In this document: one piece after another, positions 3,315 to 35,980 of the stretch
Numbering within the stretch: position 1 is the stretch's first letter
Layout of the letters: each line of letters begins with the position of its first letter
The notes under the pieces: model-generated
What the model saw: only the letters and a program-made list of their open reading frames with translations
Told to the model about the DNA's origin: nothing
Database searches by the model: none
Made by a program: the position numbers and the translations under genes
Virus record (IMG/VR): IMGVR_UViG_3300034524_000181
Coordinates: 1 to 64,000 of that record
Origin: a virus
Direction: 5' to 3' (one strand)
DNA: 64,000 bases

Positions 3315-5501
3315 TTACGCTGTTATAAAACGTCCCTGCGCCCTTGAACCTGTCTGCATCAGGTTATATAACTCCTGTGAAATCCTACGTATGTCTTCTT
3401 CACCACGAACAATCATCTGCTGCACCACAACAAGCGGCCCGGAAGCTAAACCGCTAAATCCACCTCTTCCACTTACATTAATATCAGGAGATATATTAAA
3501 ATCTGTCGGCACTGCATTTTGCATATCGTCTGCCACTCTGGCCATAGCCTTGTCAAATCCCTCACCAATACCCAGTGCCATATTGCCGCCAATACCTTCA
3601 AAAACAGTGGACGGAGATCTGATTCCAAGAAAATTCTTTACTCCATCAACAATACCGGAAAAGAAACCGGAAACCTTATCCTTAATCCAGCTACCAAGGC
3701 TTTTAATACCTTCCCAGATGCCTTTTACAATGTTCTTACCAATCTCAACCACTGAAACAACCGCCTTGCCCAAGCCTTCTATAATAGCCGCAACAATCTG
3801 AGGTAAAGACTTTACTAGTTCTGGAATGGCTTTCACAAGCCCGGCAGCAAGCTGTACGATAAGCATAATTCCTAATTCTATGATCTTCGGCATATTGTTC
3901 GTCACAAAGTCAATGATTGCTGTAATTATCCTCGGCAGTGCTTCAATGAGTTCTGGCAATGCGTTTAAAAGTCCCTGCGCCAGTCCCTGAATCAATGTAA
4001 AAGCAGCTTCAAGGATTTTGTCCATGTTATCCAGCAGTCCTTGCACAATGGTGATTACTGCTTGAACCGATGCTGGAATTAGCTCCGGTAATGCTTCTCC
4101 AAGCCCCATTACCAACGCTGTGATTAGCTGCACAGCTGCATCAATGAGTAAAGGCAGGTTATCAATGAGTGCTCCTACAATAGTCATGACCGCATCTACT
4201 GCTGCTGGAATCAGCTCCGGCAGCAGGCTCAAGAGAGTTTGAAGCACCTGAGAGAACAATTCAGTTACAGTTTGCAACAGCATGGGAAGCAGATCTTTGA
4301 CTGCTGAGATAATAGAACCAGTTGCCTCCGGCAGGGCTGCCACGATATTCTCCAAAACCGGTACAATATTTTTAACTACAGCCTGAAAGGCATCCACAAG
4401 ATTTTGGGTTAGGTTCGTCATATCAGCGTTCGCATTGCCAAGTCCTGCTATAAACGAACTTAGAGAGGCTTGTAAAAGACCAATGGAACCGCTGATGGTC
4501 TGGGTAGACTCTCTTGCGAAGTTGCCAGCATACTGTTCGGTTTTTTCAAAAAACATCTGCATGGCGATCTCGGCCTTTTCGGCATTGGTTGCGCTATTCC
4601 AGGCAAAATCCAGCCCTTTTGCAAGAGCATAAGCTTCGATGGTAGTGGCGTTCATGGCGACACCCAGATTATCCATCATGGTGAAGTTACCCTTGGCTGC
4701 GCCAGCGATGGATTCCATAGCAGTCTGCATGTCAATACCCATAACCGAAGCCATATCTGCCGCTCGCTGCATGGCCTTCTCGGTAAGTTCCAGACTTTTT
4801 TGCTGATCGACACCAGCACCCTGAAACAGTGCGCCCATTTTGTTGGCGGTGGCAAGGTACTCGGATTGGGACAAGCCCAGATTCTTGTAGGCTTCTTCTC
4901 CCGTTTTTTGGATACGTGCAGCATATTCTCCAAACACAGCTTCAGAACCACCAAGGTTCTGCTCAAGCTCACCAAACTGCTCCACGACCTCTTTTCCCAG
5001 CTTGATGGCAGCCGCGCCCGCTGCGGCTGCTGCAGCACCCATAGCCGCGCCAACACCTTTAAGAACGCTGCCCAGCTTCTCAAATTTCGAGCCGGATTTT
5101 TCGGCATTGTCTCCACTTTCCTTCAATTCGTCCCCAAGCTCGTCTGCACTTTCAGCAGACTGTTCGAGCTCGCGCTCCATTTTGTTCAGTTCGGCTTTTG
5201 CATTATTAAGCTGTATTTGCCACGACTGAGTACGTCTGTCGGTTTCTCCGAAAGATGAGGCGGCATTGGCAAGCGCTTTCTCCAAAGTAGCTATTTTTTC
5301 TTTCTGCAATTCGATCTCTTTGTTAAGCACCTTGTTTCTTGCAGTAACAGCTTCAACTGATTTATCTTGCTTATCAAACTGAGATGCGACCAGGTTCATT
5401 TCGCTACCCAGTACCTTAAAACTTTGGTTGATCTCGCGAATGGCGTTTTTAAATTCCTTTTCGCCTTCAATCCCGATCTTCAAGCCAAAATTGTCTGCCA
5501 C
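3315..5501 (-). CDS. Tail tape measure protein
   Basis: This 728-residue protein should set tail length and pass through the tube during DNA ejection. Residues about 30-145 are a charged, coiled-coil-rich region. An Ala/Gly-rich hydrophobic stretch follows near residues 150-175. Residues about 370-610 hold repeated hydrophobic units of roughly 37-40 residues with LPELI-type motifs. The C-terminus holds a GIRSPSTVFEGIG motif common in tape measures. The start is a GTG (codons for V/M-A-D-N-F-G) behind AAAGGAGG. The B homologue is 852 residues with a different middle, so the N- and C-termini are shared while the core has been exchanged or expanded. Confidence 0.93.
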   Translation of the reverse strand: MADNFGLKIGIEGEKEFKNAIREINQSFKVLGSEMNLVASQFDKQDKSVEAVTARNKVLNKEIELQKEKIATLEKALANAASSFGETDRRTQSWQIQLNNAKAELNKMERELEQSAESADELGDELKESGDNAEKSGSKFEKLGSVLKGVGAAMGAAAAAAGAAAIKLGKEVVEQFGELEQNLGGSEAVFGEYAARIQKTGEEAYKNLGLSQSEYLATANKMGALFQGAGVDQQKSLELTEKAMQRAADMASVMGIDMQTAMESIAGAAKGNFTMMDNLGVAMNATTIEAYALAKGLDFAWNSATNAEKAEIAMQMFFEKTEQYAGNFARESTQTISGSIGLLQASLSSFIAGLGNANADMTNLTQNLVDAFQAVVKNIVPVLENIVAALPEATGSIISAVKDLLPMLLQTVTELFSQVLQTLLSLLPELIPAAVDAVMTIVGALIDNLPLLIDAAVQLITALVMGLGEALPELIPASVQAVITIVQGLLDNMDKILEAAFTLIQGLAQGLLNALPELIEALPRIITAIIDFVTNNMPKIIELGIMLIVQLAAGLVKAIPELVKSLPQIVAAIIEGLGKAVVSVVEIGKNIVKGIWEGIKSLGSWIKDKVSGFFSGIVDGVKNFLGIRSPSTVFEGIGGNMALGIGEGFDKAMARVADDMQNAVPTDFNISPDINVSGRGGFSGLASGPLVVVQQMIVRGEEDIRRISQELYNLMQTGSRAQGRFITA

Positions 5502-10103: not shown

Positions 10104-11364
10104 CTTTTGATCCCTCCGTTTCAGCATTGTTTTTGCCTGCAAATGCACCTGCATCGGCAAGCCTGGTCATGTTACCGTTAACAAGATACAGATCTCCGCC
10201 CAACTCCGCCGGAATCCGGTTCATGTCCTCAAGCTCACGGATATCGTTAGCAGACATCCAGCCGTTCTGGCGAGCTACAGCATAACCATTCATGCGGCTT
10301 GCATAATCACCGCGCAGAAGGCCATCTACATTGAATTTGACAAAGTATGCCCGCTTCTCTGATGGTAAAAGCAGCGCTTTTTGGAGAGCCTGTTCCCAAC
10401 GCACCACCCACGGGTCAAGCGTGTATTTAACAAATTCCAGAGATTGCTGTTCGATGTTTGAAAAGCTTGACTTTTCAAGATCTCCAACCATATGGGGAGG
10501 TACTCGGAATATCCGAGCAATTTCATTTATCTGAAACTTTCTTGTCTCTAAAAACTGTGCCTGTTCGGGTGGAATGCCGATTGGTTGAAACTTCATTCCC
10601 TCTTCCAGAACTGCAATGCGATGAGCATTGGCACTTCCTTGATAAACAGCGTTCCAGCTTTCCCGCACCTTTGCCGGATCCTTTAATACGCCGGGATGTT
10701 CCAGAACGCCACCCGGATTTGCTCCGTTGGCAAAAAAGGATGCACCACACTCCTCACAGGCAATAGCCATGCCTATGGCGTTCTTGGCCATAGCAATAGG
10801 GGAGTATCCAATCAGCCCGTCAAAACCGAGTCCCGGGATGTGAAGAACCTCCTCACTTCGTAGGTATATAAGGCCTGCTTTTGGATTAACCCTGCTCTCA
10901 TCGCTGTCGCGCCGATAAGTGTAAAACAGTTCTCCGTTTGGAGCCCTGTCTACCGTCATTTTGTTTGGCAAAAGTGGATAAAGCGCCAGCACTCGTCCGG
11001 AACCGTCCCTAATAATTTGAGCGTAAGCATTTCCCCATAAAAGAAGATGACTCATCAGTGTTTCTCGGAACACGAATGAAGTCATCTCAGGGTTTGGTTC
11101 GTCATGGAGTAAATAATAGAGCGGGTGGGTCAACGCTTTTTCTTTGCCACCGTCTTCTTTATAGCGGTACACATGAAGCGGAAGCCCTGCGATGGCTTCT
11201 GCAAGTATCCTTACACAGGCATACACTGCAGTTGTCTGCATAGCAGTCCGCTCATTTACAGTCTTTCCGCTGGATGTGCCGCCGAAGAAAAAGCTATATG
11301 CATTACCGAACAGGCTGTTTTTCGGCTTGTCCCTTGCTTTGAACAAACGGGAAAATACACTCAT
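10042..11364 (-). CDS. Portal protein (HK97 family)
   Basis: This 440-residue protein is a phage portal protein that forms the dodecameric DNA gate at one capsid vertex. Typical segments are MQTTAVYACVRILAEAIAGL, LLWGNAYAQIIRDGSGRV, EVLHIPGLGFDGLIGYSPIA and ARIFRVPPHMVGDLEKSSF. The start overlaps the stop of the large terminase by four bases, which suggests coupled translation. The C-terminal 20 or so residues overlap the protease gene. The homologue at 57806-59062 lacks the longer C-terminal tail. Confidence 0.95.
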   Translation of the reverse strand: MSVFSRLFKARDKPKNSLFGNAYSFFFGGTSSGKTVNERTAMQTTAVYACVRILAEAIAGLPLHVYRYKEDGGKEKALTHPLYYLLHDEPNPEMTSFVFRETLMSHLLLWGNAYAQIIRDGSGRVLALYPLLPNKMTVDRAPNGELFYTYRRDSDESRVNPKAGLIYLRSEEVLHIPGLGFDGLIGYSPIAMAKNAIGMAIACEECGASFFANGANPGGVLEHPGVLKDPAKVRESWNAVYQGSANAHRIAVLEEGMKFQPIGIPPEQAQFLETRKFQINEIARIFRVPPHMVGDLEKSSFSNIEQQSLEFVKYTLDPWVVRWEQALQKALLLPSEKRAYFVKFNVDGLLRGDYASRMNGYAVARQNGWMSANDIRELEDMNRIPAELGGDLYLVNGNMTRLADAGAFAGKNNAETEGSKVEQITKTKTGSPLLELDTKR

Positions 11365-12965
11365 ATGATCAACAGCCCCCTTTCATCATAAATTGATCCA
11401 TTGCGCTCATCCCCGTCATGCCTTAACGCGCGGTCAAGCGCCATAATTAACGCTACCGCACCATCTATTCTCTCGGTGGACTTTTCTTTATCAGGCTTTA
11501 TGTTTCCGGCGGGATCAGTTTTGACATAGATATTGTCCATCATCCACCGCAGTACTGGATTACCACCATGGGCGATGCGTTCTTCCAATGTCAGCTTCAT
11601 CAACTCTTTTGTAGGCGGCGACATATCCTTGAAACCCTGACCGAATGGAACAACCGTAAACCCCAAAGCCTCAAGGTTTTGCGTCATCTGAATTGCGCCC
11701 CAGCGGTCAAAGGCTATTTCCTTAATGTTATATTTCATTCCGAGTTCCTCAATAAAGGTTTCGATAAAGCCATAATGCACGACGTTACCCTCAGTGGTAT
11801 ATAAAAAGCCTTGCCTTTCCCAGACATCATAAGGCACATGATCTCTCCGCACACGCTGATCAATATTCTCCTCCGGTATCCAGAAAAAAGGTAGAATCTG
11901 ATATTTATCAGATTCATCAAGCGGTGGAAACACCAGCACAAAGGCGGTAATATCGGTAGTAGATGACAGGTCAAGTCCTCCGTAACAGGTTCTGCCGCGC
12001 AATTTTTCTGCATCAACAGGAAACGCACACTTATCCCATTTATCCATTGGCATCCAGCGCACCGATTGTTTCACCCACTGATTTAAGCGGAGCTGACGGA
12101 ATAAATTTTCCTCTGCAGGATTTTGCTTGGCATTTTCACAAGCCACCCTCAGTTTTTCGATGTCAACTGTAATGCCTAGTGACGGATTAACCTTTCTCCA
12201 TACCTTTTCACTTGTCCAGTCGTCGGTATCGGATGCGCTGTAGATAACAGGGTAGAAAGTCGGATCTATCTTACGTCCCTGCAGAATATCCTCTGCCTTT
12301 TGATGCACTTCCCAGCAGATGGAATTGCGGTCGGTGCCAGCAGTCGTAATCAGGAAGAACAACGGCTGCTTCCTTGCATCGCCAGATCCGTGAAGCATTA
12401 CATCATAAAGATCCCGGTTTGGCTGGGCATGAAGTTCGTCAAATACCACACCATGGACGTTTAGCCCATGTTTCGTATATGCCTCCGCTGAAAGCACCTG
12501 ATAAAAACTGCCTAACGGTTTATATACCAGCCGCTTCTGCGACAGCATTGGTTTAATTCGAGACTTTAATGCCGGACACTGTTCCACCATATCTACCGCA
12601 ACGTCGAAAACAATGGATGCCTGCTGACGGTCAGATGCACACCCGTAAACCTCGCCACCATGCTCGAAATCACCGCATGTCAGGTATAAAGCGATTGCCG
12701 CTGCAAGCTCGCTCTTACCCTGCTTTTTTGGGATTTCTATATAGGCAGTGTTAAACTGCCGGTATCCGTTAGGTTTCAAGATTCCGAATATATCCCGGAC
12801 AATTTGTTCCTGCCAGTCAATGAGTTCAAAAGGCATCCCATACCATTCGCCCTTGGTATGCTTCAAGCAGTTTATAAAAGTAACAGCGGCATCCGCCGCT
12901 TCCTTGTCATATCGAGAATCTTCCGCCATAAACTTTGTTGGTTTATACCGTTTTAACTTCCGCAG
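11361..12965 (-). CDS. Terminase large subunit
   Basis: This is the ATPase-nuclease motor that packages DNA into the prohead. Visible motifs include IPKKQGKSELAAAIALYL (Walker A-like), VHGVVFDELHAQ (Walker B), FLITTAGT (coupling motif) and the nuclease-domain aspartates in YGGLDLSSTTDITAFVLVF and EIAFDRWGAIQM. The first ATG at 12927-12929 would give 522 residues, but homology to prophage B continues 12 codons upstream (RKLK-YKPT-F). The extended start would be a CTG eight bases behind AAAGGAGG, giving 534 residues. The exact start is therefore unsettled. Confidence 0.93.
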   Translation of the reverse strand: MRKLKRYKPTKFMAEDSRYDKEAADAAVTFINCLKHTKGEWYGMPFELIDWQEQIVRDIFGILKPNGYRQFNTAYIEIPKKQGKSELAAAIALYLTCGDFEHGGEVYGCASDRQQASIVFDVAVDMVEQCPALKSRIKPMLSQKRLVYKPLGSFYQVLSAEAYTKHGLNVHGVVFDELHAQPNRDLYDVMLHGSGDARKQPLFFLITTAGTDRNSICWEVHQKAEDILQGRKIDPTFYPVIYSASDTDDWTSEKVWRKVNPSLGITVDIEKLRVACENAKQNPAEENLFRQLRLNQWVKQSVRWMPMDKWDKCAFPVDAEKLRGRTCYGGLDLSSTTDITAFVLVFPPLDESDKYQILPFFWIPEENIDQRVRRDHVPYDVWERQGFLYTTEGNVVHYGFIETFIEELGMKYNIKEIAFDRWGAIQMTQNLEALGFTVVPFGQGFKDMSPPTKELMKLTLEERIAHGGNPVLRWMMDNIYVKTDPAGNIKPDKEKSTERIDGAVALIMALDRALRHDGDERNGSIYDERGLLII

Positions 12966-12996
12966 CTTTGCCGCCTCCTTTCCTAAAATTGAGCAA

Positions 12997-13026
12997 GAAA
13001 AAAGGAACCTCAGGGATGAAGTTCCT
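12997..13026 (-). terminator. Hairpin with U-run just upstream of terL
   Basis: The minus strand reads AGGAAC, a loop of about 12 bases, then GTTCCTTTTTT. This has the form of a weak intrinsic terminator between the DUF5049-like gene and the large terminase. A matching hairpin occurs at the same place in prophage B (60704-60730). Confidence 0.65.
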
Positions 13027-13067
13027 CTCGTTAGTGGATTTCTATGAAGCCTGTTACGTTATTACTG

Positions 13068-13265: not shown

Positions 13266-13733
13266 CTACACCTCAGACTTCTCTGCCGCTGAAACTGAAT
13301 CGCGTACCGCTTTATTGAGAACTGAAATATCAAAACCCGCGTCTATATATCCGTGCCGAATCACCTCGTAATAGTAACGACCCGGTGCTCCCAAAGGTCT
13401 ACCTTCATTCATGATATACACCATTGCGGGTACCCACTGCCCTTTGAAACGTACCTTAACCGTTTCTTTCCGGTATAGATGCGGATAACCTTCATATCTG
13501 TCCAGCGCCTCCTCATCATTAGGCATGATTCTCCAAAGCAGTACCGGTACACTTTCACCTTTTTGTTTTTCTATTGTCGCTACTGCGCCGCCATTCCCTC
13601 CTCTGAATAACAGCCGGTATCCTGTGAGTTTTGCACTCCCCAGCACTTTTGCCGTTGGGCAGCGGTATGCCATCTGCCTTAAGTTCAGATTGCTTCCGTA
13701 TGCTAAATATATGGTTCCTTTTTCTTTGCTCAT
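13266..13733 (-). CDS. Gamma-glutamylcyclotransferase-like (AIG2/GGCT) protein
   Basis: This 155-residue protein has the GGCT-like fold. The signature YLAYGSNLN near residue 9 is the glycine-rich substrate loop, and EALDRYEGYPHLYRKE near residue 73 carries the conserved catalytic glutamate. Family members cyclise gamma-glutamyl amines or remove gamma-glutamyl groups. It is encoded directly downstream of an amidoligase in both prophages. Such pairing has been interpreted elsewhere as making and breaking amide bonds. The substrate in these phages is not known. Confidence 0.88.
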   Translation of the reverse strand: MSKEKGTIYLAYGSNLNLRQMAYRCPTAKVLGSAKLTGYRLLFRGGNGGAVATIEKQKGESVPVLLWRIMPNDEEALDRYEGYPHLYRKETVKVRFKGQWVPAMVYIMNEGRPLGAPGRYYYEVIRHGYIDAGFDISVLNKAVRDSVSAAEKSEV

Positions 13734-13793
13734 CGTATCATCCTCCTTGTATTTACCAAGGCAGAGGCGGAGTCCACCCCTGCGCTTGTCTAT

Positions 13794-14693
13794 CTATGCT
13801 GCCCGAAACCGCCATGCTGCGTTACCATCAAGGTGTTTGCAAAGATGCTCCCGGCAGTTTTTGAACTCATCACCAATAAGTCCTATGCGGTTGAGATATG
13901 TCCGCATGGCAAACTTCTCATTTTCAACCTGTGGTTTCTTGCTGGAAGCGCATTTTTGCGTTAACGCCTGATGGTTTAACGCAAGGGCAAGCACTATGTA
14001 GCTTCTAATTTTTCCCGCATGAAGTTCGCTGTTAAAGCCTCGAAGCTCAATTGTCCCATTGCCGTTAAAAAAGCTGTGCAGGTTCAAAAAGTGGTATCTG
14101 CTATTATGGTAATGGGTGCTTCGGCTTTCGCTGTAACCTTCGTACCAGATGCTCTCAATCGCCGCCATGGTTTTGGGCTTACGCCGATTCATCTTCTCAA
14201 CCAGTGCCGCATCCATCTTTTTACAAAACCGCATCCTGTCCGGCTCAATCTGCAATGCTTTATAGAAAAGGTCATTCTTGCTGGCGATAATGTTGATAAA
14301 ATTACGGATGCTTCGCGGTGTGTGGTCTGCACCGTCTATATGGATATGAATTCCACAGCTTGTGTTTGCAAAACCTCCAGCCTTGCGAAGCCTCCTTATC
14401 AATTCCTGCAGGGTTTCAATGTCTTCGCGGTATGTCAGTATCGGGCTTACCAACTCGACGCTATATTCCCGGCCAGCCGCCACAATCCTGCCGTTTTCCT
14501 TTTTCTGAGTCCGGATGCTCCCGTCGCTCATGAATTTCCATATCCGTCCATCCGGTGCTATAACCTTTTGGGTATCGTAATAATCTCCGATGGATTCAAT
14601 CCTTCCTCCAAGAAAAGCTGCTGCAGTTTTTGCCGCCTGTTTTCTTGTAATCCCCGTCAATTCTACCTCGATTCCAAATCTCGTTGTAAGCAT
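13794..14693 (-). CDS. Amidoligase enzyme with extra C-terminal domain
   Basis: This 299-residue protein matches the putative amidoligase family (glutamine-synthetase-like ATP-dependent ligases). Visible motifs are FGIEVELTGI (metal-binding Glu pair), GREYSVELVSPIL, TSCGIHIHIDG, RYHFLNLHSFF and GTIELRGFNSELHAGK. Residues about 250-299 (ENEKFAMRTYLNRIGLIG and following) form a separate block also found at the C-terminus of the protein encoded at 15277-15969. I chose the ATG at 14691-14693 because GAGGAG precedes it and the B homologue is then the same length. It is probably cytosolic and forms ATP-driven amide bonds; the substrate is unknown. Confidence 0.88.
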   Translation of the reverse strand: MLTTRFGIEVELTGITRKQAAKTAAAFLGGRIESIGDYYDTQKVIAPDGRIWKFMSDGSIRTQKKENGRIVAAGREYSVELVSPILTYREDIETLQELIRRLRKAGGFANTSCGIHIHIDGADHTPRSIRNFINIIASKNDLFYKALQIEPDRMRFCKKMDAALVEKMNRRKPKTMAAIESIWYEGYSESRSTHYHNSRYHFLNLHSFFNGNGTIELRGFNSELHAGKIRSYIVLALALNHQALTQKCASSKKPQVENEKFAMRTYLNRIGLIGDEFKNCREHLCKHLDGNAAWRFRAA

Positions 14694-14738
14694 TGCGCTT
14701 TCTCCTCGCTTTCTCTGTGTTTTTTGCCCTTTGGCAGT

Positions 14739-14779
14739 GTACATTAGGCCATTGAAAACACAGGATAGCAAGGCAATTC
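14739..14779 (-). promoter_or_regulatory. Conserved bipartite intergenic element, copy A1
   Basis: The minus strand reads CTTGCTAT, then 20 bases, then ATGTAC. The same layout occurs upstream of the virulence-related gene in A (16045-16080) and in front of both genes in B (62368-62403 and 63504-63541). The halves could be a -35/-10 pair with a long spacer (TTGCTA, 19 bases, TAATGT). It lies 46 bases upstream of the amidoligase start. Confidence 0.55.
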
Positions 14780-18643: not shown

Positions 18644-18800
18644 GTTGCATTCTCCTGTTCAATATTTTCTCAAGACCCTTTTTAGCACCCTCACAATCTC
18701 CGTTTAATACTTGTCCCCGCAGGGTCTTAAACTGCTGCTTCGTTAAATGGTCTTTATATTTTCTAAGTTCTCTAAGAAAGATTGAATTTGTTTTATGCAT
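18618..18800 (-). CDS. Small phage protein of unknown function
   Basis: This 60-residue, Lys/Arg-rich helical protein (LRELRKYKDHLTKQQFKTLR, LNGDCEGAKKGLEKIL) is a type often seen beside small terminase genes in Firmicute phages. Its ATG overlaps the stop of the small terminase and its end overlaps the second ParB-methyltransferase. Both overlaps argue that it is translated. No function can be assigned. Confidence 0.65.
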   Translation of the reverse strand: MHKTNSIFLRELRKYKDHLTKQQFKTLRGQVLNGDCEGAKKGLEKILNRRMQHEHTKNIC

Positions 18801-19351
18801 CAGCCACCCCTCCTGGCTGTCAGGAGTTTTTCCATCACATCATCGTGGGGAGTTGCCCCTTTGTATTCGGTAGCACAGTTTTCCCGCACAACTTGGTAAA
18901 TCTGATACCACAGGTTATTGGCCTGTTTCATGAAGCTTTGACTCATGGCCACATAAGGCGACGGGATGGCATTGCCAGTCGTCGGATGCTTGGCAAGAAA
19001 GCCAAATTCGGTGATACATTCCTCGCACTGGATCCACCGCGCCACGCTCTGGGCATATTGCTCTATAAGCTGCGCAGGAATAAGATGAACACATCTGCGT
19101 TCCTTAAGCCACTGCCATGTTTTTTCGTATATTTCCACCGCCAATGTTGTTTTGCCGTTCTTCTGCTTTGCGGCAAGATAATCCCTTGGTGGCGGCATGC
19201 TCTGGCCTTCCAGTTCCGCAGCATCCGTAAACTCCATTACCATGAGCTTTCGTCTGCCAGGGTTTCCTTCCAAAATCTTATCCGCCAGCGGCTTTTTCTT
19301 CTGTCCTGCGCCAATGCGCGCCCCGCCGCGGTTGGTACCGTCTTTTGCCAT
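18800..19351 (-). CDS. Terminase small subunit (P27-like)
   Basis: The 183-residue protein should bind the packaging start site and load the large terminase. It opens with the basic segment MAKDGTNRGGARIGAGQKKK, followed by LADKILEGNPGRRKL, typical of P27-type small terminases. A helical core (LAVEIYEKTWQWLKERRCVH) follows. I chose the ATG at 19349-19351 because GAGGTG is six bases upstream. HNH nuclease, small terminase and large terminase keep the order seen in cos-type phages, although accessory genes separate the two terminase genes here. Confidence 0.85.
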   Translation of the reverse strand: MAKDGTNRGGARIGAGQKKKPLADKILEGNPGRRKLMVMEFTDAAELEGQSMPPPRDYLAAKQKNGKTTLAVEIYEKTWQWLKERRCVHLIPAQLIEQYAQSVARWIQCEECITEFGFLAKHPTTGNAIPSPYVAMSQSFMKQANNLWYQIYQVVRENCATEYKGATPHDDVMEKLLTARRGG

Positions 19352-19382: not shown

Positions 19383-19472
19383 GGGGGATATACCCCGTTT
19401 GAAACTGCGATTTTTCGCGCGTGACCCCCCGCCCGTTGCACGAAACATATCCACTAGAGATTTTGACCCCCC
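19383..19472. other. Candidate cos / packaging start region
   Basis: The gap between HNH and small terminase genes holds two direct copies of GACCCCCC (19423-19430 and 19465-19472) and the near-palindrome GGGGATATACCCC. In cos phages with this gene order the cut site commonly lies next to the HNH gene. The cut point cannot be read from the sequence. Confidence 0.45.
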
Positions 19473-19831
19473 TACCGTCTTGCCCACCGCTCTCCTTCGC
19501 GGGCAGTGATCGAAGAGTGACATCTTTTACACAGGCTCATAAGGTTGCTGTCTGCATTGGTTCCGCCTTTAGACAAAGGGATGATATGGTGCACCTCTTC
19601 GGCCGGAGTGAGACTTCCGTACTTTTGACACTCCTCACAAAGCGGATGCTCTGAGATATATCTGTCTCTGATGCGTCTCCATCTCCGGTCATAGCGTTTT
19701 CTTGTTTGGGGATCTCGTTCATATTTGTTGTAATAAGCATCAACTTGCTTTTGATGCTTATCGCAGTACCTTCCGTCCGTCAGCTCAGGACAGCCGGGAA
19801 AGGAGCAAGGCCTTTTTGGCTTTCTTGGCAT
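19472..19831 (-). CDS. HNH endonuclease
   Basis: This 119-residue protein has an HNH nuclease domain. The zinc-binding CEEC and CKRC pairs flank the catalytic EVHHIIPLSKGGTNADSNLM segment. A basic N-terminus with a CSFPGC and CDKH cluster precedes it. HNH proteins coded next to terminases help the large terminase cut DNA at cos sites. I chose the ATG at 19829-19831, behind AAAGGAGG, because a longer frame upstream has no ribosome binding site and crosses a terminator. Confidence 0.9.
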   Translation of the reverse strand: MPRKPKRPCSFPGCPELTDGRYCDKHQKQVDAYYNKYERDPQTRKRYDRRWRRIRDRYISEHPLCEECQKYGSLTPAEEVHHIIPLSKGGTNADSNLMSLCKRCHSSITAREGERWARR

Positions 19832-19854: not shown

Positions 19855-19893
19855 TAAAAAAAGCCCTCACGGCTTCATCCCATGAAGGCTTAT
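19855..19893 (-). terminator. Hairpin with U-run in the leader of the late operon
   Basis: The minus strand reads AAGCCTTCAT, then GGGATGAAG, then GAGGGCTTTTTTT. Either CTTCAT/ATGAAG or the outer AAGCC/GGGCTT can pair before the U-run. It lies about 15-50 bases downstream of the predicted start from promoter 19914-19958 and ahead of the HNH ribosome binding site. Confidence 0.65.
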
Positions 19894-19913
19894 CCATAAC
19901 TTTTCACAATACC

Positions 19914-19958
19914 ATTATATTCGGATTTTTATTGAATTTCATCTCATAAAAATCTCAT
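19914..19958 (-). promoter_or_regulatory. Activator-type promoter, copy 1 (late operon)
   Basis: On the minus strand two direct ATGAGAT repeats, four bases apart, are followed by exactly 20 bases after the next G and then TATAAT. No -35 consensus is present at the usual place. A matching copy with the same spacing sits exactly 360 bp away at 20274-20318. Confidence 0.7.
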
Positions 19959-19966
19959 CTGGAATA

Positions 19967-20197
19967 CTAAACAGCACATTTACTTTTCGCCCATGGCATT
20001 CTGCCGTTATAATACTTATCCGAAATATACCGCTGCATATCGGATGGTAAAGCCGCCAGCAAACGGTAAACCTTTTTCCTGTCTTCCTCTAAATCTTGGG
20101 CGCTTTTATAGAATGAACATTTCTCTTGTTGACACTTGCGTACAGTCAGTATATTGCAGCTATTCTTTCCGTTACTGCCAAAGCATTTATCGACCAT
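19967..20197 (-). CDS. Small Cys-containing phage protein
   Basis: This 76-residue protein has five cysteines (VDKCFGSNGKNSCNIL, RKCQQEKCSFYK, and one near the end), which could bind a metal. The C-terminal half is helical, with MQRYISDKYYNGRMPW. I recognise it as a conserved hypothetical of Firmicute phages but know no function. It has its own promoter cassette upstream (20274-20318) and an AGGAGTGAGG ribosome binding site. The matching cassette after it drives the packaging operon, so this gene may be a late regulator; that is a guess from position. Confidence 0.7.
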   Translation of the reverse strand: MVDKCFGSNGKNSCNILTVRKCQQEKCSFYKSAQDLEEDRKKVYRLLAALPSDMQRYISDKYYNGRMPWAKSKCAV

Positions 20198-20222
20198 TTT
20201 TCCTCACTCCTGTTTTATGGCA

Positions 20223-20243
20223 TAAAAAAGCCCCGAAGGGCTT
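20223..20243 (-). terminator. Intrinsic terminator with UUCG loop
   Basis: The minus strand reads AAGCCC, TTCG, GGGCTT, TTTT. This is a textbook compact terminator. It lies after the regulator gene and about 24 bases downstream of the predicted start from promoter 20274-20318. Confidence 0.85.
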
Positions 20244-20273
20244 ATGAATTTTTATATCATTTTCCACGATATC

Positions 20274-20318
20274 ATTATATATGGGATACCTGTGTTTTAC
20301 ATCTCATAAAAATCTCAT
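20274..20318 (-). promoter_or_regulatory. Activator-type promoter, copy 2
   Basis: It has the same design as copy 1: ATGAGAT, four T, ATGAGAT, G, 20 bases, TATAAT. Similarity continues past the -10 (TATAATGATATCGTGGAAAA against TATAATGGTATTGTGAAAA). It begins two bases after the stop codon of the ArpU-like gene. Confidence 0.7.
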
Positions 20319-20320
20319 TT

Positions 20321-20776
20321 CTACTTCCCGTATAAAAGCAGTGCCAGATGATTAAGCGCCTTGTCCTTCCTGCGGTACACCTGTGCTCTTTCAAGAAACA
20401 GCTTCTCTCCGATGTTTGCTACAGCTTCTGTCTTGCTCACATCATTAACGAAAAATTCTGTCAGTATAAACTGTTCTTCCTCCGACAGGGCTTCCCAAGC
20501 AGGCTTGAACCACTCCATATATTCTAATGCCCGCCTGTAACGTTCTTTCAACACATCAATCTCGTCAAGGCAAGCAGCAAGGCGTTCTTCACCGCTTTTG
20601 GGATTGTGTTTGCCCGGAACTCCGGTAATCTTTGCACTATGAGGGCTTGTCATACGGGTTTCAACTTCATATATATCCTCATCACTGTGCTCGATAATGT
20701 ACTGCATGCTGCTGTAATCTTTCAAAGCTTCAACAGCAGCCGCTTTTTTATCTAAATACTGCCATGCAATCAGCAT
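20321..20776 (-). CDS. ArpU/DUF1492-like late transcription regulator
   Basis: This 151-residue protein resembles phage late regulators of the ArpU and DUF1492 type, related to sigma region 4 folds. The C-terminal part (SEEEQFILTEFFVNDVSKTE, then EKLFLERAQVYRRKDKALNH) looks like a helix-turn-helix that binds promoter DNA. The ATG at 20774-20776 is preceded by GGAGGTGCGAT. It stands last in the early gene run, and two matching activator-type promoters follow at once. It is the natural candidate for their activator; the pairing is inferred. Confidence 0.75.
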   Translation of the reverse strand: MLIAWQYLDKKAAAVEALKDYSSMQYIIEHSDEDIYEVETRMTSPHSAKITGVPGKHNPKSGEERLAACLDEIDVLKERYRRALEYMEWFKPAWEALSEEEQFILTEFFVNDVSKTEAVANIGEKLFLERAQVYRRKDKALNHLALLLYGK

Positions 20777-33203: not shown

Positions 33204-35741
33204 CTAACTGTTTTTATTTAAGTTCATATTGTTGAAAATTTTTACAATTTCATACCAAAGAACTGATACAGCTGCAATACCTACGGCTATAAAGAACTGT
33301 GATAATGATAATGGTGCAAGATTTAGAATTCTGTTAAGAGGAGTGTAAAGCATTAACAAAAGACCTGCAACAGTACCAATAATAACAGCCCACATAACTT
33401 TATCTTTAATTAGATATTTCATCGTCTTAAATGCATTATCATAATTTGAACTGTTTACTTGAACTAAAAATAAATTTGCAATCATTATAATACTAAGTCC
33501 CATTGTTCTCGCCAATTGTGGATTTTCAGGTTGTTGTTTAATAAGCATATAATATGTTCCAAAAGAAGCTATGAATATAGCCAGCCCCTGTAGAATACTT
33601 TTTGTCAATACTCCAGCTGTAAGAATTTTTTCATTAGGATCCCTTGGTTTTCGATCCATTATGTTACTTTCAGCAGGCTGACGTTCTAAAACAATAGAAC
33701 AAGTTGGGTCAATAATAAGCTCTAAAAGCACAACATGCACAGGAAGCAATAAAAGACTTGCAGGACTAATATTTAAAAGAGGTGCAAACAGTGATGCAAA
33801 TGCAATAGGAATATGAATAGTAAATACATAACCTATAGCTTTTTTGATGTTATCATAAATTCTTCTTCCATCTTCAATTGTATGAACAATTGTTGAAAAG
33901 TTATCATCCATCAAAATTAAATCAGCAGCTTCTCTTGCAACCTCAGAGCCACGCTTGCCCATTGCAATTCCTATATCTGCATATTTAAGAGCTGGAGCAT
34001 CATTCACACCATCACCTGTCATGGCAACAACTTCACCATTTTCCTTAAATGCTTTAACTATGCGCATTTTATGTTCCGGCAAAACTCTTGAAAATATATT
34101 TGCATCATGGACACGTTCCATAAGTTCAGAATCTGTCATATTGTTCAGTTCATCACCAGTAATAATATTATCGCTGTTTTTCATTCCAATTTGTTTTGCA
34201 ATGGAACTTGCCGTGATTCCATTATCACCAGTAATCATTACTACACGAACCCCTGCTTTATTACACATCTTGATATCTTCTTTCACAGATTCTCTTGGAG
34301 GATCAGCAAGACCAATTAAACCTAAAAATGTTAACTTGCAATCAGTAATATTATCAGGAATGTCAGATTCACTCTTTGGATTCATTGTACCAACAGCTAT
34401 TACTCTTAAACCTTCCCTTGACATTTCATTTATTTTATTTTCAATTTGCTTTCTTTGTTCGTCTGATAATTTGCATATAGTCAATATACTTTCAGGCGAA
34501 CCTTTTGCTGCAATAACAATTTCTCCATCATGTCGCCAAACATGCCCCATCATTTTAAGTTCATTTGTAAATGCATATTCGGATATCAGTTCACCACCAA
34601 ATAAATGGTCTTTTGAAATTCCAATGCTTTCACAATGTAAAAGCATTGCCTTCTCCATTGGGTCATATGCATCTGTTTCACAGCCAAGCCCCATAATTTC
34701 ACATAAGTTATAATTATCATCATCAATTGCCCAAGTATCCTGAACAGCCATTTTGTTCATTGTAATCGTACCTGTTTTATCTACACAAAGAACTGATACA
34801 GCACCTAATGTTTCAACAGAAGAAAGCTTGTGAACAAGAGACTGTTTTTTAGCAAGACGCCATGCACCCATAGATAAGAACACTGTCAATATAACAGGAA
34901 ATTCTTCAGGTATCATAGCCATTGCTAAAGTTATTCCTGATAAAATACTTTCAATAATTCTATCTGTAAATTTATGATCCGGAATATTGAAATAAATTAT
35001 TACTGTAACAAGAATAAATAAAATACCTGCTATTATTGCACATGTCTTAACAATGCTGTTTGTTTGCTTTTCTAAAGGCGTTGGACTGTCTGGAGCAGAT
35101 GCTACATTAATACCTATTTTACCATACTCTGTATTAGAGCCTATTTTATCTACAAGAATTGTAGCACTTCCTTGCGTAACGAGAGTACCTGCATAGCAGT
35201 AATCCTTGCGCCAATAATCTGTATTATTTTTATCGGCATTATCAACAGTCACTTTCCAAACACCTACAGATTCACCTGTAAGAGATGATTCGTCAACACA
35301 AAGATCACTTGCCTTGATAACCTCACCATCAGCAGGAATTTTAACGCCTTCGTTGATTATCATTAAATCAGTTGGGACTAAGTCTTCACTTAAAATTGTC
35401 TGCTCTTTTCCATCTCGAATAACTATTACATGTGGAGCTGATAAATCTTTAAGTGCATTTAATGTTTTGTCTGTCTTCCATTCCTGAATTATTTCTATAC
35501 TGATGATACCAATTACAAAGATTAGCATAATCACACCATCTCGTGGTTCACCTAATATAAAATAGATGATTGATGCAACAATTAACAATAAAAACATCGG
35601 CTCTAAAACAATGTGAATAACCTTGCTAATAAAACTTTGTTTTTTTACAGTTGCCAGTTCGTTTTTACCAAACTGTTCCTGCAACTTTTTGGCTTGCTCA
35701 CTTGTCAAGCCTTCTAAATTTTGATTTTTTTGTTCTGTCAT
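33204..35741 (-). CDS. P-type cation-transporting ATPase, likely transition-metal exporter
   Basis: The 845-residue enzyme is a P2-type ATPase. It shows the actuator motif LTGES, the phosphorylated aspartate in CVDKTGTITMNK (about residue 321), MITGDN and the hinge motif GDGVNDAPALKYADIGIAMG. About ten membrane helices are visible, with PEEFPV in the transport-site helix. No heavy-metal N-terminal domain is present. By sequence alone it would be called a calcium-type pump, but the NiCo riboswitch in its leader points to Co, Ni or Fe export. It follows its own promoter and is the only gene in that unit. Confidence 0.93.
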   Translation of the reverse strand: MTEQKNQNLEGLTSEQAKKLQEQFGKNELATVKKQSFISKVIHIVLEPMFLLLIVASIIYFILGEPRDGVIMLIFVIGIISIEIIQEWKTDKTLNALKDLSAPHVIVIRDGKEQTILSEDLVPTDLMIINEGVKIPADGEVIKASDLCVDESSLTGESVGVWKVTVDNADKNNTDYWRKDYCYAGTLVTQGSATILVDKIGSNTEYGKIGINVASAPDSPTPLEKQTNSIVKTCAIIAGILFILVTVIIYFNIPDHKFTDRIIESILSGITLAMAMIPEEFPVILTVFLSMGAWRLAKKQSLVHKLSSVETLGAVSVLCVDKTGTITMNKMAVQDTWAIDDDNYNLCEIMGLGCETDAYDPMEKAMLLHCESIGISKDHLFGGELISEYAFTNELKMMGHVWRHDGEIVIAAKGSPESILTICKLSDEQRKQIENKINEMSREGLRVIAVGTMNPKSESDIPDNITDCKLTFLGLIGLADPPRESVKEDIKMCNKAGVRVVMITGDNGITASSIAKQIGMKNSDNIITGDELNNMTDSELMERVHDANIFSRVLPEHKMRIVKAFKENGEVVAMTGDGVNDAPALKYADIGIAMGKRGSEVAREAADLILMDDNFSTIVHTIEDGRRIYDNIKKAIGYVFTIHIPIAFASLFAPLLNISPASLLLLPVHVVLLELIIDPTCSIVLERQPAESNIMDRKPRDPNEKILTAGVLTKSILQGLAIFIASFGTYYMLIKQQPENPQLARTMGLSIIMIANLFLVQVNSSNYDNAFKTMKYLIKDKVMWAVIIGTVAGLLLMLYTPLNRILNLAPLSLSQFFIAVGIAAVSVLWYEIVKIFNNMNLNKNS

Positions 35742-35830: not shown

Positions 35831-35874
35831 AAAAAAACACACCTATGAAACATTTTACTGTCCCACAGATGTGA
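35831..35874 (-). terminator. Riboswitch-controlled terminator
   Basis: The minus strand has CACATCT near the aptamer end pairing with AGGTGTG, followed by seven T. The 5' arm overlaps the 3' part of the NiCo aptamer, so aptamer folding and termination exclude each other. Confidence 0.8.
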
Positions 35875-35940
35875 AATAATTCAATCTGCTGCTGTTTCCA
35901 GCCCGGCCCCACGAACAATATTGTTCATCGCCTGCTCAGT
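35857..35940 (-). promoter_or_regulatory. NiCo (czcD) riboswitch aptamer
   Basis: The minus strand reads ACTGAGCAGGCGATGA at its 5' end, GGGGCCGGGCTGGAAACAGC in the middle and CATCTGTGGGACAGT at its 3' end. These blocks match the conserved core of the NiCo riboswitch class. It binds cobalt or nickel, and iron(II) has also been proposed. Binding should prevent formation of the adjoining terminator and so turn on the ATPase gene. Confidence 0.9.
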
Positions 35941-35980
35941 TTGTACCGTAGATTTATATGCAGTGCAAAGAGATTTTTAT

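Follow-up and report, generated by a model that had tools for sequence, protein, structure and literature searches.

Late promoters followed by terminator-like hairpins beside an ArpU-like regulator gene, with a possible role for the regulator in antitermination

Phage late genes are needed in quantity, and the late module of the provirus considered here raises the question of how they are expressed when each of two promoter-like cassettes ahead of them is soon followed by a hairpin with a U-run. The window is a stretch of 64,000 nucleotides, positions 1 to 64,000 of IMG/VR record IMGVR_UViG_3300034524_000181. On its minus strand the order is regulator, cassette A, Cys-rich ORF, cassette B, HNH endonuclease and terS.

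Two cassettes and the regulator beside them

The features on which the first part of the argument draws are these:

20321..20776, minus strand: ArpU-like late regulator, 151 aa, with two long helices and a predicted C-terminal sigma-region-4-like domain (profile scores, structure model)
20301..20318, minus strand: cassette A tandem boxes ATGAGAT-N4-ATGAGAT, 11-bp period, -51 to -34 (sequence; position and co-variation in relatives)
20274..20279, minus strand: cassette A -10 element TATAAT (conserved among relatives)
20266..20271, minus strand: cassette A second -10-like hexamer TATCGT, -4 to +2 (77-seed matrix; TA preset in the seed pattern)
20222..20243, minus strand: cassette A terminator-like hairpin AAGCCC-TTCG-GGGCTT and T-run, +25 to about +45 (hairpin/T-run scan)
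19967..20197, minus strand: 76-aa Cys-rich ORF between the cassettes, phrog_27214, function unannotated (PHROG match)
19941..19958, minus strand: cassette B tandem boxes ATGAGAT-N4-ATGAGAT, -51 to -34 (sequence)
19914..19919, minus strand: cassette B -10 element TATAAT (sequence)
19906..19911, minus strand: cassette B second -10-like hexamer TATTGT (77-seed matrix; TA preset in the seed pattern)
19856..19891, minus strand: cassette B terminator-like hairpin and T-run, +17 to about +52 (hairpin/T-run scan; covariation)
19472..19831, minus strand: HNH endonuclease, first packaging gene (PF01844 1.6e-14; phrog_144 1.3e-36)
18800..19351, minus strand: terminase small subunit, terS (PF05119 1.5e-8; phrog_83 5.7e-37)

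The original prediction had described two ATGAGAT-TTTT-ATGAGAT sites 360 bp apart at the same distance from TATAAT, and this is exactly what is found. The sequence ATGAGATTTTTATGAGAT occurs on the minus strand in perfect copies at 20318-20301 and 19958-19941, offset by 360 bp, and in both cassettes 21 nt separate box 2 from TATAAT. When the window was shuffled and up to three mismatches were tolerated, ATGAGATTTTTATGAGAT gave 0.15 matches on average, and two matches appeared in 1 of 100 shuffles. Across the 87,059-base record, ATGAGATNNNNATGAGAT has only two matches, both of which are the box pairs of the cassettes. Judging from the 21-nt spacing to TATAAT, transcription would start at about 20267 (A) and about 19907 (B), and the starts proposed earlier at 20267 and 19907 follow from the -10 elements in the same way. 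The box pair of cassette A begins 2 bases past the TAG stop of the regulator, as had been noted, and each cassette is indeed followed by a hairpin with a U-run, then by a ribosome binding site and a gene (the 76-aa Cys-rich ORF after A, the HNH endonuclease after B). The hairpin proper is short in cassette A (20243-20228, +25 to +40, dG -7.9); in cassette B it lies at 19891-19861 (+17 to +47, dG -18.7) and is of a type kept across the regulator family. Other parts of the description need trimming. The cassettes had been called identical, which is true of the 18-bp core alone, since the 63-nt blocks are 73% identical and the hairpins differ. The absence of a -35 box likewise holds for cassette A; in cassette B a weak -35-like hexamer, ATGAAA, stands at a spacing of 17 nt. 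The Cys-rich ORF looks like a small gene inserted together with a cassette copy. Elsewhere in the window, in its host-like portion, a NiCo riboswitch (35856-35949, 77.7 bits) lies 5' of a large gene at 33204-35741 that appears P-type ATPase-like by eye.

The regulator is here named ArpU-like and not ArpU because its score against TIGR01637 (27.3 bits, E 3.3e-6) lies below the curated cut-off of 43.1 bits; the likeness to ArpU that had been pointed out stands, and membership of the ArpU family proper does not. Its best PHROG is phrog_8834 (1.2e-21, unannotated function), with weaker matches to phrog_248 (2e-10) and phrog_36, both of which are assigned to transcription regulation. In the structure model (pLDDT 84.9), residues 87-151 align with region 4 of several sigma factors at Z of 7 to 8.6, mostly at 1.7 to 3 A across about 60 residues; the model thus assigns the C-terminal domain the fold of sigma region 4. 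Such a domain would fit a protein that contacts DNA near the -35 position. Among the sequence and fold matches of the regulator there is no Q, AlpA or other antiterminator, an absence that excludes nothing.

The promoter half of the cassettes is of a known kind, namely the late promoters of Ltr regulators (ArpU/RinA/Alt). As in the window, the Ltr systems (phi11 RinA, phi13 Ltr, TP901-1 Alt and the A118 ArpU/LlgA type) have the regulator 5' of a late promoter made of repeats and a -10 element; the window differs from them in having two boxes instead of four and the whole cassette twice. Ltr-controlled late promoters of Gram-positive phages are reportedly the subject of work by Quiles-Puchalt et al. 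(2013, NAR). According to the available text of PMC13123087, an Ltr late promoter has a small regulator directly 5' and direct repeats ahead of a TATAAT-type -10, it drives packaging and structural genes, and in phi13 it requires Ltr, its TATA box and its repeats. In the window, the regulator gene lies directly 5' of the late promoter and the packaging genes, and direct repeats lie 5' of the -10 element with a period of 11 bp like that of phi11, TP901-1 and A118 (the period is 18 in phi13).

Promoter and terminator in relatives of the regulator

Relatives of the regulator were drawn from viral contigs and species genomes, one set being the best 80 of 98 relatives. Five of the 154 regulator loci were left out as their regulator is truncated (L031, L032, L110, L147, L166), and the remaining 149 together with the window make 150 loci that were read. 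A search of related phages for the spaced repeat near ArpU-like genes had been suggested, and it was fruitful: a cassette lies at most 500 nt from the regulator stop in 130 of the 150 loci, a set that includes the best 80 of 98 relatives. The matrix behind this count was built from 77 distinct seeds that come from these very loci; 300 mononucleotide shuffles reach 0.5 at best, and the cassettes later used score 25 to 68. Besides the boxes and the -10, it contains TANNRT as a further hexamer (-4 to +2) and, past the start, positions rich in A. The TA of each hexamer carries no evidential weight, having been preset in the seed pattern. Fifteen of the 20 loci lacking a cassette in 500 nt have one further down, and all 22 distal cassettes of those 15 loci carry a terminator (-5 or lower). 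As for the other five, less than 190 nt of sequence is available in L075, L076 and L145, the cassette of L084 scores low and is visible by eye, and L131 has none. In distant relatives, an HNH-like start comes directly after the cassette, without the 76-aa Cys-rich ORF.

That the regulator binds the repeats had been part of the original prediction, and the comparison of loci supports the pairing of regulator and boxes. Among the 130 related loci, helix RAQVYRRKDKAL goes with the ATGAGAT pair in 14 of 14 loci and helix RSSAYKKKNR with GTCCAAAATCGCGGACG in 5 of 5. Helix types RSSAYN(K/R)KNRA are found with GAGTAATATCGTGGACG-like sites, where the largest class is based on 42 of 49 box strings, and helix RSWVYK with GTGGACAAATAGCGGACG-like sites. 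These counts are descriptive only, as the 130 loci share kinship and are not independent. The box sequence thus shifts with the helix, as would be expected were the recognition helix reading the boxes, and together with the presence of the cassette in most loci, the predicted sigma region 4 fold and the requirement for repeats in phi13, this argues for binding.

The terminator half of the cassette (T1) was examined in 106 distinct cassettes from a set of relatives that includes the best 80 of 98. A hairpin with a U-tract lies within +1 to +102 in 96 of them, and in 76 of the 106 its dG is -15 or lower. Dinucleotide shuffles gave 75/530 for any such hairpin and 0/530 at dG -15 or lower; the corresponding figures are 88/447 and 10/447 for random positions, 203/957 and 14/957 for stretches past other ORF stops, and 252/915 and 114/915 around other ORF starts (HNH starts included). 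Eight of the ten cassettes without a terminator are the first of two tandem promoters, and the rest are L051, which has a broken T-run, and L158. The U-tract starts at a fixed place relative to the promoter (+48.3, sd 6.8, n=49 representatives), and its distance to the next gene is looser (sd 29.1, n=46). In the T1 stem, two-sided changes preserve 8 of 14 pairs (30 of 41 cluster representatives aligned). If the strongest hairpins are taken without conditioning on T, their mean stability is -19.6 versus -7.0. The T count after them is 3.31 versus 1.89, with at least five T in 13/54 versus 3/161, and it is less distinct because the unconditioned strongest hairpins run into A- and T-runs. All terminator calls depend on predicted energy and T content, and as the relatives are not independent the counts overstate the evidence. 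As far as predicted terminators can tell, one family of clostridial and bacillar phages strongly conserves the order of promoter and then terminator. T1 would probably terminate transcription in vivo.

It is worth adding that the late promoter is repeated in tandem, at a distance of 67 to 112 bp, in L082, L091, L092, L095, L097, L140, L165 and L167, and that in L091, L092, L140 and L167 a terminator follows the second promoter and none follows the first. Two other roles for the leader can be set aside. Many cassettes have ATG or GTG at +1, which could open a leaderless leader peptide; others start with ATC or ATA instead, and translation across the hairpin therefore fails as a general explanation. 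A riboswitch or other known leader RNA is not indicated either, since no Rfam family scores above its gathering score at the cassettes; a PyrR match (E 0.34) reaches 26.9 bits versus a gathering score of 54.

A second candidate terminator (T2) lies further down the late operon, ahead of the gene for the large terminase subunit:

12994..13029, minus strand: T2 hairpin (dG -15.5; 13029-13000) and tail, inside the late operon (hairpin scan; relatives)
11361..12929, minus strand: terminase large subunit gene, terL (listed ATG; relatives suggest a slightly upstream start)

T2 ends less than 20 nt ahead of the likely terL ribosome binding site, and Ltr boxes are absent nearby. This leaves no room for a promoter, so terL would be reached through T2, and if T2 terminates in vivo, as we infer, expression of terL and of the genes that follow would require read-through. 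The relatives of terL used for comparison were the best 80 of 598; of these, 74 distinct loci out of 76 could be scored ahead of terL and 70 distinct out of 72 on both flanks, the remainder having too short a flank. Within this set, a T2-type hairpin lies 5' of terL in 37 of 74 distinct relatives and inside terL in 7 of 76; where both flanks are available, a hairpin precedes terL in 36/70, occupies the terL-portal junction in 8/70 and comes further on in 7. Half of these relatives show no T2. Two-sided changes are seen in 4 of 9 pairs of the T2 stem (18 of the 37 T2 loci). All four contigs common to the regulator and terL sets have both T1 and T2 (L507, L513, L520 and L523, paired with L007, L022, L056 and L046), and the window does likewise. 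Minus-strand hairpins with T-rich tails and a dG of -12 or lower number 12 in all in 24 kb of the window (plus strand 6), and many of these are intragenic. One such hairpin (5726-5692, dG -24.6, T-rich tail) overlaps the stop of a small tail-region gene and may be a frameshift signal or a terminator. Between terS and terL, cargo genes at 13266-14771 appear by eye to be gamma-glutamylcyclotransferase-like and amidoligase-like.

Other late promoters of the Ltr kind

For the ArpU family proper, a Bacilli set was made up of 89 of the 109 listed TIGR01637 places above the cut-off and one below it, with near-identical and partial cases left out. A strict promoter rule that is blind to terminators, combining the matrix with 11-bp periodicity, was applied to 89 distinct Bacilli loci and called 18 promoters, with 0 in 90 shuffled and 0 in 90 opposite-strand sequences. 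A terminator lies in +1 to +140 after 16 of the 18 (random segments 139/450), and one with dG -10 or lower after 14 of the 18 versus 54/450 random segments (Fisher p 1e-9). The two called promoters without a terminator are those of L460 and L441, the latter apparently a false call. Several Bacilli ArpU loci show, by eye, four 11-bp repeats. Several of the uncalled loci have a recombinase gene after the regulator. A tyrosine-recombinase-like gene (by eye) lies 3' of the regulator in L416, L417, L419, L421, L425, L427, L429, L430 and L436; beyond that gene there is a repeat promoter in three of them, L416, L417 and L421.

The four phages phi11, phi13, TP901-1 and A118, whose regulators match different families, all have a hairpin and T-run between the late promoter and the first late gene. 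It lies at +62 to +85 in phi11, at +26 to +50 in phi13, at +446 to +466 in TP901-1, with others ahead of it, and at +207 to +226 in A118, where it is weak (-8.8). For a test across families, distinct close relatives were scored for a terminator of -8 or lower within +1 to +300; five loci (3 Alt, 2 A118 type) have no -10 by the pattern used. Relatives of RinA have such a terminator in 3/3 (control 1/9) and relatives of Alt in 43/56 scored (control 50/168), and the conserved TP901-1 hairpin itself is present in 44/59 Alt relatives. For the A118 type the figures are 9/18 (control 14/54), and 7/18 (control 7/54) at -10 or lower, which means that the terminator is not conserved there. Judged by these predictions, the promoter-terminator layout reaches beyond the family of the window's regulator and does not extend to all Ltr families. 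In TP901-1 (L168), two tRNA genes are predicted at 5135-5376, in the stretch that separates the late promoter from the terminator preceding terS, and the leaders of A118-type prophages contain stretches that look tRNA-like by eye.

In the available text of PMC13123087, the phi13 reporter spans -200 to +50 and still needs a phage factor and the repeats. As placed here, that reporter ends at the hairpin without its U-run, so that initiation was tested and passage was not. The result means that Ltr activates initiation in phi13, and antitermination is unnecessary to explain it. The same available text has no mention of a downstream terminator ('terminat' gives 0 matches), though the present scan finds one in phi13. 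In the open-access literature, no description of a terminator downstream of Ltr late promoters was found. Nor was any link of ArpU or RinA to antitermination found among the articles listed there, some of which contain both words.

How polymerase might pass the hairpins

The boxes, their spacing, the -10 elements, the hairpins, and the conservation and covariation of all these can be read directly from the sequences. The mechanism that we tentatively prefer, at somewhat short of an even chance, is that the regulator both starts late transcription and lets polymerase past the terminators, like Q or AlpA. Each cassette would be a late promoter of the Ltr kind, at which the ArpU-like regulator, encoded just 5', binds two 11-bp-spaced boxes centred at -42.5 and recruits RNA polymerase; such a promoter has a good -10 and hardly any -35, or none. 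The polymerase would soon meet an intrinsic terminator, mostly at about +16 to +55 in this family, and late expression would need passage of T1 and then of the second terminator before terL. What opens these would most likely be the regulator, which would join polymerase at the promoter and activate initiation as well, making two locks and one key. The activator half is known in phi13, and the terminator half has precedents in 21Q and AlpA. A single protein for both locks is the most economical reading. The earlier suggestion that late transcription also needs passage of a terminator gains from the conserved order, from T2 and from 13 loci discussed below; it loses from the A118-type relatives, which often have no clear terminator.

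In lambdoid phages (Q, PR', tR'), the regulator gene adjoins the late promoter, and the terminator of lambda lies much further from the start than in the window cassettes. The direct-repeat site (of 21Q) and the terminator resemble the window cassettes, as may the -10-like repeat near the start, and, going by predicted terminators, the cassettes share with Q systems a terminator between the late promoter and the first late gene. For 21Q, the available text of PMC6606751 describes a direct-repeat site, a -10-like element near the start and a terminator after the late promoter. The differences are that the window regulator is a different protein, and that its boxes lie upstream of -34 (they span -51 to -34), whereas the Q site is a binding element between -35 and -10. 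In Q systems a -10-like element within the initially transcribed region causes a sigma-dependent pause; the second -10-like hexamer here, which is conserved in the family apart from its preset TA, lies at -4 to +2, outside the transcribed region. Unlike Q, the phi13 regulator at least is required for initiation too. AlpA of Pseudomonas aeruginosa has been shown to work by antitermination and not by activation; in the available text of PMC7969949 it acts from a DNA element embedded in the promoter and lets polymerase pass intrinsic terminators that begin at +54 and +26. Removal of the terminator alone raised reporter expression there, which suggests that the promoter is active on its own. AlpA differs from the window regulator in being a predicted winged-helix protein whose element sits between -35 and -10.

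The main rival, a plain activator with an attenuator, is possible though rather doubtful. Here the regulator only raises initiation, the terminator is a leak guard against basal or stray transcripts, and activated transcription passes by incomplete termination. Ltr proteins are described as activators, and the phi13 reporter needs Ltr and the repeats although it seemingly lacks the U-run of the terminator (PMC13123087, available text), both as this reading would have it; it also accounts for a terminator pinned to the promoter and for A118-type phages that manage without one. It is harder to square with the great stability of many T1 stems, already given above, and with T2, which adds a barrier before terL and would be costly where expression is high, unless something helps polymerase to read through.

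Another suggestion is that the hairpin insulates the early operon, stopping early transcripts that cross the regulator gene while late ones escape, the polymerase being barely off the promoter. The first scored -10 begins at most 49 nt from the regulator stop in 130/150 loci, so the hairpin is usually the first after the early operon, and in L460 a terminator lies 5' of the called promoter with none in +1 to +140. Against that counter-example stand 13 loci in which a strong terminator is already present 5' of the late promoter and the promoter-proximal one is kept all the same, namely ten loci with an inserted unit, which are close relatives and in part near-identical, and L426, L432 and L484 (the promoters of L426 and L432 were assigned by eye). 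As insulation also leaves T2 unexplained and the TP901-1 hairpin starts as far as +446, we consider this improbable. The inserted unit sits right after the regulator stop in L005, L008, L009, L025, L101, L104, L105, L106, L108 and L109 and opens with its own strong terminator, ahead of the late cassettes; in L008, the sole one scanned, its contents are a 144-aa gene and another gene that encodes SocA/Panacea and MqsA antitoxin domains.

It is slightly more improbable still that the hairpin is a 5' stem-loop that stabilises late mRNA or shapes translation, with no role in termination. In this regulator family the hairpin sits close to the leader's 5' end, as would suit such a role. The role is hard to reconcile with the T-runs that accompany the stems in 96/106 cassettes, with hairpins that lie 62 to 446 nt into the leader in phi11, A118 and TP901-1, or with the lack of an Rfam match above gathering score. 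That the repeats and hairpins are a cos or terminase-binding site is very unlikely: cos sites are often near HNH and terS genes, and these do come next, but the spacing to the -10 is fixed, the box sequence tracks the regulator helix, the same layout occurs in phi11, a headful phage, and in the window it occurs twice 360 bp apart.

Ltr proteins are described as late-gene activators, and with a terminator conserved after the promoter this description would omit a step. A terminator soon after the promoter shows strong conservation in one family and often occurs near ArpU, RinA and Alt genes, as far as such hairpins can be predicted. Should the regulator not be an antiterminator, the conserved attenuator would still need a reason, and reporters that end short of the terminator would capture only half of the control. 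The wider form of the preferred mechanism is possible and, on balance, somewhat doubtful: many 'activators' of the Ltr kind (ArpU-like, ArpU, RinA, Alt and the phi13 type) may be promoter-loaded, processive antiterminators that stay with polymerase past T1 and T2, the ArpU-like ones binding DNA by a sigma-region-4-like domain, and so constitute an independently arisen Gram-positive counterpart of Q. If the regulator does antiterminate, a class of phage regulators would change category, and late control in Gram-positive phages would parallel that by lambda Q.
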